Source: Spirochaetota bacterium (GTDB taxonomy: Bacteria > Spirochaetota > Brachyspiria > Brachyspirales > JACRPF01). From it: DNA of 64,000 nucleotides. Where the stretch lies: positions 124,001 through 188,000 of the forward strand of contig JACRPF010000014.1 in assembly GCA_016214035.1 (NCBI GenBank), given 5' to 3'. This document shows, one piece after another, positions 37,410 to 59,691 of this stretch. How positions within the stretch are numbered: position 1 is the stretch's first letter; every line of letters starts with the position of its first letter. The position numbers were made by a program, and so were the translations under genes. Below the pieces are notes generated by a model, which was not told where the DNA came from, ran no database searches, and saw only the letters and a program-made list of their open reading frames with translations.

Positions 37410-37458
37410 CTGTCCGGAGAGGTTCTCGCGTGAGCGCGGAGGGGGGGGCACGCTTACC

Positions 37459-37576
37459 GTTCGGGAAGAAATGTCTTTCTGAGCACCGCAATAGGTCTCA
37501 GCTGTCCTTCCATGGACAGAATCGACGCACTCGCGCCATCTTATGCGGTGCGAGGGAAATACATTCTCCCCGAAAC
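37459..37576. repeat. dispersed element, copy 1, with imperfect terminal inverted repeats
   Basis: A 118-base non-coding element between gyrB and the cupin gene. The left end (37459-37488, GTTCGGGAAG...GCACCG) matches the reversed right end (37546-37576, read as GTTTCGGGGAG...GCACCG). Inside is the hairpin CTGTCCTTCCATGGACAG (37502-37519). The left end, the hairpin and their 42-43 base spacing recur in copy 2 near 59.5 kb. Short TIRs and no ORF fit a miniature mobile element or a REP-like structured repeat. Confidence 0.6.
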
Positions 37577-37590
37577 GAAGGGCGCGAAGA

Positions 37591-37908
37591 TCACTCACCC
37601 CTGATCATTACCAGCATCATCTTGAATTGTTCGACGGCATTTACCGCGTGCGGTATATTCGCCGGCATGATGATGTATTCACCGGGTTTCAGCGCATGCT
37701 GTTTACCGGCGATTGTGATCTCGCCGGTGCCGTCAAGATTATAGACCAGTGCGTCGAATGGTGCCGTGTGTTCCGACAGTTTCTGTCCCTTGTCAAAGGC
37801 GAACAGTGTCACCGTGCCGACCTTTTTATTGATGATTGTCTTGCTTACCACCGCGCCCGGGGCGTATGCCACCGAGGCTCCGGCGTTGATAGCTTCTTGT
37901 GTATCCAT
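37591..37908 (-). CDS. small cupin-domain protein
   Basis: 105 residues, one cupin barrel. First motif GQKLSEHTAPFDALVYNLDG, second motif LKPGEYIIMPANIPHAVNAVEQF. The His in SEHTAP and the Glu/His pair suggest a single metal site. AAAGGAG precedes the ATG. It is similar to small cupins found beside redox and regulatory genes; the role is unknown. It lies 198 bases downstream of the ferredoxin gene on the same strand. Confidence 0.85.
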   Translation of the reverse strand: MDTQEAINAGASVAYAPGAVVSKTIINKKVGTVTLFAFDKGQKLSEHTAPFDALVYNLDGTGEITIAGKQHALKPGEYIIMPANIPHAVNAVEQFKMMLVMIRGE

Positions 37909-38106
37909 GATAGTCTCCTTTTTTAGGTCTGTTGTTTTGTAATAACTTTAACTATTTGTGCATTGTAATTATTGTTGTCGCTTTCGCGATGCATCCGGCA
38001 TCGCTTGCGCTCACTTGAAGCGGGCAATATCTATTTTTCAGTATTGTCGCACCTCGTGTGTGATCTGATTGCCGCTTTCGGTGCCTTGTCGCATAGTAAT
38101 CCCGCT

Positions 38107-38949
38107 TCACCCCACCCACTCCTCATTCAGCACTTCGCCCTGCAGGCTTATCGTGATGGCTTTTACCGGGATTTTGCGCTTTGCCTTGTCCCGCGCCTGT
38201 TGTGCCAGATGCAGTAACCCGCCGCAGCAGGGAACCTGCATTATCATCACGGTCAGCGTATTTATTTTCGCTTCATCGATCATGGCGATGAGCTTTTCGG
38301 TATATGTCTCCTGGCCGTCGTCGAGTTTAGGACAGGCGATGGCGAGACTTTTTCCTTTGAGAAAGTCCTTGTGGAAATCGCCTACCGAGAAGGCCACACA
38401 GTCGGCTGCAAGGAGTACGTCTTTGCCCTGAAAATACGGCGCCATCGGTGATACGAGATGCAGCTGTACCGGCCATTGCCGAAGCTGCGATGCCCGCTGT
38501 CCTTCTTCTGTACCGGCGGTTGTATCGCCGAACTCCATTACTTTCGATCCCGGGCAGCCCGCGTGATGTGATGCGTGTTCCATTGTCTTTTCCTCCGTTA
38601 AAGGGTTATTTATATTGTTTTCTTTCAAATACTGAATCGCTTCGTTGAGATAACCGGTCTCTCCGTGGTCGCGTAGATGCGCAAGGTGTGCCTTAATCGT
38701 GTTCGTTCCGGCCTTGACGATAGACGGCATCACTTTTCGCTCGTCATACGGTTCCGCCTCCCGTTTCTCCACCGTTATGGCGCCTTCGGGGCAATGACCG
38801 AGACAGGCGCCGAGTCCGTCACACATGAGGTCGCTGACAAGACGTGCCTTGCCGTCAATCATCTGAATAGCGCCTTCGGGGCAGTTTGGTATGCACAGAC
38901 TGCATCCAGTGCACTTGCCCTCATCGATTTTGATGATGCTTCGTACCAT
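38107..38949 (-). CDS. two-cluster 4Fe-4S ferredoxin-domain protein
   Basis: 280 residues. Residues 1-60 hold two ferredoxin motifs, CTGCSLCIPNCPEGAI and CDGLGACLGHCPEGAI. The rest is a separate domain with further Cys and His groups (HASHHAGCPGSK near residue 130, ADCVAFSVGDFHKDFLKG, and VPCCGGLLHLAQQ near the end) that could bind a metal or another cluster. Such proteins are common in anaerobes, but the reaction is unknown. It lies 9 bases downstream of the TetR gene, whose operator is visible, so expression is probably ligand- or redox-controlled. Confidence 0.82.
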   Translation of the reverse strand: MVRSIIKIDEGKCTGCSLCIPNCPEGAIQMIDGKARLVSDLMCDGLGACLGHCPEGAITVEKREAEPYDERKVMPSIVKAGTNTIKAHLAHLRDHGETGYLNEAIQYLKENNINNPLTEEKTMEHASHHAGCPGSKVMEFGDTTAGTEEGQRASQLRQWPVQLHLVSPMAPYFQGKDVLLAADCVAFSVGDFHKDFLKGKSLAIACPKLDDGQETYTEKLIAMIDEAKINTLTVMIMQVPCCGGLLHLAQQARDKAKRKIPVKAITISLQGEVLNEEWVG

Positions 38950-59221: not shown

Positions 59222-59292
59222 CAATAGCGAGGGAATGCGGGATTCGACTGCGACGATGCTGATACGGATTTGATATCGCCCCTATTCTCCAG

Positions 59293-59321
59293 CTCCTTTC
59301 CCCGCTGTGCAGGGAAAGGAG
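59293..59321. repeat. 10-bp perfect hairpin in the ruvB-phoH gap
   Basis: CTCCTTTCCC (59293-59302) and GGGAAAGGAG (59312-59321) pair perfectly around CGCTGTGCA. It lies in the ~580-base stretch without a gene between ruvB and phoH. No T run follows. It may be a REP-like hairpin or part of a small RNA. Confidence 0.55.
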
Positions 59322-59471
59322 TGCGCCAGTTACAAGACGAAAGCCGATACTCTTTTTTCTCATTTGCATTCACATATTGCAGACCCAAAGGCACAACGGC
59401 GTTCGAGCGTTTGAATGTCAATAACATGGAAATACAATACTACAATCCTTTACAATCGCGCGATTGGTGAA

Positions 59472-59646
59472 GGGAAGAAATGTCTTTCTGAGTACTGGGC
59501 ATAGAATTCAATAAACATGTTCAAATCATCGAACAGAAGGAATAATAAATGCATCAGAGCGGCAGGATGCCGCGTATGCGACGAATCCGTCCATGGAAGG
59601 ACGGCTGAGGAGCGCCCGGTGCTCAGAAAGACATTTTTTCCCGAAC
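59472..59646. repeat. dispersed element, copy 2, with terminal inverted repeats
   Basis: The ends 59472-59495 (GGGAAGAAATGTCTTTCTGA then GTAC) and 59619-59642 (reverse complement nearly identical, and extending to GTTCGGG at 59646) form inverted repeats around a ~120-base centre. The hairpin CCGTCC-ATGGAA-GGACGG (59587-59604) matches that of copy 1 near 37.5 kb in the opposite orientation, with one compensatory base-pair change. No credible ORF is present. The rest of the gap, 59222-59471, shows only the hairpin at 59293. Confidence 0.6.
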
Positions 59647-59691
59647 AAAAACGCGCGAAATTCCTCGCCGCTTCGCGGTTCCCGCGGCTCC

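Follow-up and report, generated by a model that had tools for sequence, protein, structure and literature searches.

What kind of sequence occurs twice, in opposite orientations and without coding for protein, in the window (the whole 64,000-nucleotide stretch of DNA analysed here), and what is selection acting on? The first-pass annotation had described a small dispersed element with inverted ends, selected as a folded nucleic acid and not as protein. Both copies lie where it had placed them, oppositely oriented, and this general description is borne out by the further copies and the covariation reported below. The features referred to throughout are as follows, type A being the element itself and type E one of its relatives.

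59456..59658, + strand (the folded strand): copy 2, an intact type A element of 203 nt, bounded by the closing CGCGCG helix and its partner
59587..59604, + strand: apical hairpin P2 of copy 2, CCGUCC-AUGGAA-GGACGG, with an ANGGAN hexaloop, above the internal loop GAAU/CUGA
59559..59573, + strand: hairpin P3 of copy 2, GCGGCA-GGA-UGCCGC
59392..59455, + strand: short 5′ leader of copy 2, CACAACGGCGTTCGAGCG..., common to most leader-bearing copies
59239..59391, + strand: upstream part of the long 5′ leader of copy 2, beginning GGGATTCGACTGC, found in about eight copies
37449..37586, − strand: copy 1, a shortened type A derivative, with its P2 hairpin at 37502-37519
37977..38111, − strand: type E relative in the same window, with an approximate outer boundary and a partly degenerate outer stem

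The end shared by the two copies, GAAATGTCTTTCTGAG, recurs as had been claimed: three matches in the window are exact or carry one mismatch and one more carries three mismatches, a total of four that none of 100 shuffles reached. Taken by itself, the hairpin does not exceed chance expectation for the window, with at least two matches in 7 of 100 shuffles. The two copies are not equals. Copy 2 is intact, matches our covariance model (CM R1) at 59470-59644 (+) with 162.8 bits and folds at −97.2 kcal/mol (z −11.5 on the + strand and −9.0 on the − strand). Copy 1 is a shortened derivative without the AU-rich region of the element, matching at 37461-37603 (−) with only 40.2 bits and folding with a z of −4.65. 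Copy 2 is flanked by divergent genes which, from family features of their ORF sequences, we take to be ruvB and a PhoH-like gene. By the ORF list, the stop codon of a cupin gene lies a few bases from the end of copy 1, and the type E element at 37977-38111 sits between this cupin gene and the next gene.

Further copies in the genome and covariation of their stems had been set beforehand as tests, and the finding passed both. BLAST gave 57 matches to copy 1, and 31 elements scored at least 92 bits against a covariance model based on 22 copies, so that type A has at least 31 copies, intergenic and spread over many contigs. For the 28 best, full-model scores lie at 128-178 bits. Their architecture is, in order, a P1 stem of 27 pairs with a 2x2 loop within it, an AU-rich stretch (some 58 nt), hairpin P3 and hairpin P2. 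P2 reads CYGUCC-ANGGAN-GGACRG above the GAAU/CUGA internal loop; the hexaloop is ANGGAN in 28/28 copies, the internal loop is present in 21/22 and the stem is nearly invariant. The loop had been called unchanged, which is wrong: it is ANGGAN with N free, on a folded strand that is the reverse of the one then read. The P3 loop is CGA in 19 and GGA in 9 of these 28 copies.

Type A elements have changed in matched pairs, one strand keeping the same elaborate hairpin. The change from CTG/CAG to CCG/CGG in the P2 stem, from which compensation had been deduced, is compensatory across the genome: the pair is C-G in 14 copies, U-A in 8 and never broken. One pair of P3 is C-G in 12 copies, G-C in 9 and U-A in 1. 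The stems covary at 23 of the 44 pairs of the fold, where both sides have altered, and none of 500 shuffles, nor any structure slid along the alignment, came near this. Pairing cells amount to 96.8% against 86.8% in shuffles, and sliding the structure by 1-3 columns left 33-53%. As for the strand, the 28 copies hold 1136 Watson-Crick cells, 47 G.U and 14 A.C (26 G.U against 14 A.C without the two wobble-richest pairs), a count that alone is only moderate evidence because the cells are not independent events. The 2x2 loop in P1 is GA/GA in 10/28 copies, mostly Watson-Crick in the others and UC/UC in none, UC/UC being what the opposite strand would display. The strand can be assigned firmly, from the GA/GA loops together with an independent Rfam match of a relative, type C, to this strand. 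RNA is likely but not proven, since single-stranded DNA could yield the same strand signature. That this is a dispersed repeat selected for the folding of one strand is, in our judgement, very probable.

The ends first given for the element were too short. Outside P1 lie a second GA(A)/GA loop and then a closing helix, CGCGCG/CGCGCG, which belongs to the element and also covaries (CGCACG/CGTGCG in L111, GCGTG/CACGC in L085, and again in L090). As the element ends at this helix, type A spans about 205 nt. Its 3′ boundary is constant. On the 5′ side some copies are leaderless, and others carry about 82 or about 235 nt of leader. The upstream part of the long leader (59239..59391 in copy 2) contains a CTCCTTTCCC/GGGAAAGGAG hairpin. 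The modelled part has a near-constant length of 171-176 nt though its AU-rich stretch is almost unconserved, which suggests that the whole folded shape is recognised. The two ends resemble opposite arms of a single fold more than a protein-binding end present twice. This matters for the classical transposon that the earlier description implied, namely a MITE moved by a DDE transposase binding terminal inverted repeats. Inverted arms, fixed size, intergenic spread and a modular leader would all suit such an element, but we found no target-site duplication beyond chance (mean shared flank string 4.9 for own pairs and 5.1 for mismatched pairs), and in 10 copies the arms differ consistently at the GA/GA positions, at which perfect pairing would be expected of matching terminal inverted repeats. 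Moreover, different cores share the arms, and neither an autonomous, ORF-bearing copy nor a transposase between matching ends was found among the element and end matches examined. A MITE of this kind is therefore very improbable.

The placement of 48 copies was examined, the genes around them being called by a simple hexamer score that had been trained on the window. The folded strand points with its 3′ end at a stop codon, in most such cases no more than 45 bp off, or at a start codon at a distance of 61-238 bp (about 19 of the 48), with no clear bias of orientation relative to genes. Many copies lie a few to 40 bases past a stop codon and both strands fold well, as might be if the elements were long cis-acting hairpins at the ends of genes, terminating or stabilising the transcripts of their neighbours. 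However, it is on the strand antisense to those genes that the elements fold best and bear the strand signature, the 3′ end points at a gene start in the 19 or so cases just given, no run of U follows the stem, and the placement would also result if only sites between promoters and terminators tolerated insertions. We regard a role in cis as quite unlikely.

The same genome carries relatives of type A, which we call types B, C, D and E. Type B (18 copies) has P0, P1 and the GA/GA loop in common with type A and differs at its apex, CUGUUUGAGCA ... GCGAGUU, where the stems change together from copy to copy. Type C, represented by L052, L059 and L060, matches the RNA family TwoAYGGAY, with one copy above the Rfam cutoff (L059, 52.3 bits against a gathering cutoff of 43, on the inferred folded strand). 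Type D is a 37-base palindromic hairpin core, CCGCAAAACTAGTCCCGGGGGACTTGACAATTGCGG, whose long complementary arms vary from copy to copy; it lies some 1 kb into each of L054, L057 and L060, in the last of which it breaks up a type A arm. Type E was recognised by 52 hairpins in the genome with at most 3 mismatches, against none for a reversed control pattern, and the one in the window, GCGAUGC-CGGAU-GCAUCGC at 37977-38011, is among these 52. Most of the 52 have NGGAN loops, and most of 12 aligned units contain two such hairpins. P3 of type A with its 3′ flank (AGCG..CGCGAAUGCGAC) resembles the type E hairpin (AGCG..CGCGAAAGCGAC). The related cores show GGA-type loops on the same strand as type A, and copies L094 and L095 carry extra GGA hairpins, at least four in L095. 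Over the whole window, in a check for enrichment of GGA-loop hairpins, perfect hairpins are few.

A search for known riboswitches or other non-coding RNAs in Rfam, at gathering and relaxed thresholds, matched only type C; the copies of types A and B tested match no family in Rfam 15. A MIR1437 match on the opposite strand of L059 fell below cutoff and was dismissed as a long-stem artefact. By eye, the R and L box consensus of integron attC sites is absent from core and leader, and the copies do not support pairing of the GGA loops with the AU-rich region in a pseudoknot. To our knowledge few large structured repeats have been described in Spirochaetota, to which the best GyrB matches assign this uncultured spirochaete, and types A and B add such repeats to the phylum.

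TwoAYGGAY (RF01731) resembles these elements in its long outer stem with tandem GA loops around two hairpins with GGA-type loops. It matches 8 of 149 sampled genomes of the phylum, this one included, with three above cutoff; the matches in the seven other spirochaetes are weaker than that of type C. Tandem GAs have been reported in its stem and CsrA binding has been proposed (PMC4333381). Type A shares the tandem GA of the outer stem but does not have two AYGGAY-loop hairpins within it, the second loop being mostly CGA and not GGA. It differs further in an AU-rich stretch of conserved length, in the GAAU/CUGA loop under a strict hexaloop and in having at least 31 copies in one genome, and in the window it gave no RF01731 match at E≤5. 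In other spirochaetes (L129, L130, L131, L132, L135, L136 and L138) long hairpins resembling TwoAYGGAY occur singly or in small numbers; their outer stems differ, and some score under the Rfam cutoff.

Another possibility is that the elements are structured RNA genes, or parts of them, whose ANGGAN loops would bind CsrA, the dispersed copies jointly acting as titrating decoys. The small RNAs CsrB and RsmZ titrate CsrA, the same has been suggested of TwoAYGGAY RNA, and type A shares with them ANGGA loops on stems. The invariant P2 hexaloop with its free N is the loop context of CsrA sites, the genome has a single csrA gene, and the type C match on the inferred strand, the NGGAN loops of type E and the expanded copy L095 all point the same way. 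Yet the link of TwoAYGGAY to CsrA is itself a prediction, P3 is CGA in most copies, and the P2 stem is nearly invariant too, a constancy that CsrA binding does not need. Compared with CsrB and RsmZ, the usual type A copies have one conserved ANGGAN loop and are dispersed by the dozen, and they have no clear promoter or terminator: a TTGGAA-17-TACAAT-like arrangement is good in few leaders, many copies are leaderless and no terminator was seen. We hold the CsrA reading to be unlikely. A bolder version is improbable: the genome would carry roughly a hundred mobile elements or more, in at least four architectures, all with GGA hairpins on one strand, and these would be self-spreading CsrA decoys. 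If true, such a decoy family would make a selfish repeat also a global regulator.

The best reading is that type A belongs to a new family of REP/BIME-like dispersed repeats with a TwoAYGGAY-like architecture, joining two kinds of sequence that are usually treated apart. With REP, BIME and REPIN repeats and their TnpA_REP (RAYT) transposases the elements share high copy number (31 of type A, 18 of type B and 52 of type E), intergenic position, palindromic and strand-specific folds, compensatory stem changes, composite units, lineage specificity and the presence of REP-associated tyrosine transposases in the genome. Type A was found in none of 60 relatives, among them the sole further member of the family, and an exact motif scan of GTDB species genomes and IMG/VR, from which the genome of the window may be absent, gave no match. 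Three genes encode Y1_Tnp domains (L139, L140 and L141); one scores 83.6 against a cutoff of 80 for the NCBIfam REP-associated tyrosine transposase, which is also the best match of the other two. One of the three genes has a type E hairpin (C12:1862) at its 5′ end, some 180 bp ahead of the Y1 domain. TnpA_REP proteins bind one strand of folded hairpins (PMC8266576), and a Y1 transposase of the RAYT/TnpA_REP type recognising hairpins on one strand could be the mover here. The elements would then multiply through a single-stranded folded intermediate, and copies that no longer fold would decay, as copy 1 appears to have done. We give close to an even chance to this reading as a whole, in which type A is a non-autonomous and lineage-specific REP/BIME-type repeat multiplied in this way; mobilisation by a RAYT as such is a plausible but somewhat weaker proposition.

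Several observations count against RAYT mobilisation. No transposition event was seen. REPs usually measure 20-40 nt and bear a GTAG or CGTC tag (PMC3733652), as one or two hairpins, whereas type A has five times that length and a main stem of 27 pairs with tandem GA loops, and no tag at the hairpin foot, GTAG included, was established for it. In type E, 12 copies have C or T and then GTC before the hairpin region, which resembles the CGTC/TGTC tag (PMC3733652), but spacing and stem are unlike REP. Moreover, the transposase link is one of proximity, a single type E element at one of three Y1 genes, with no type A copy beside any, and the type A copies are old, with a mean column identity of 74% in the alignment. 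The folded strand shows no bias with respect to the G-rich strand (roughly 32/66, on a rough call of contig skew), which counts against a lagging-strand route through single-stranded DNA, since that might have produced one. The flanks of L139 and L140 hold other hairpins, tied to no repeat family described here.

Dozens of copies of several related folds in one genome provide natural covariation data. They also make it possible to ask directly whether CsrA binds such RNAs or a REP transposase acts on them.

Lastly, the leaders have some features of their own. In the other family member (G001) the leader search returned only a fragment of a generic hairpin, CTCCTTTCCCTGCACAGCGGGGAAAGGAG. This hairpin (59275-59310 in the window, and L050, L051 and L142) is present in the long leaders. 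The 5′ flank of L070 holds a short tandem array with units GACCGCCCCACGGGGATGCGT, directly upstream of a full-length leader.
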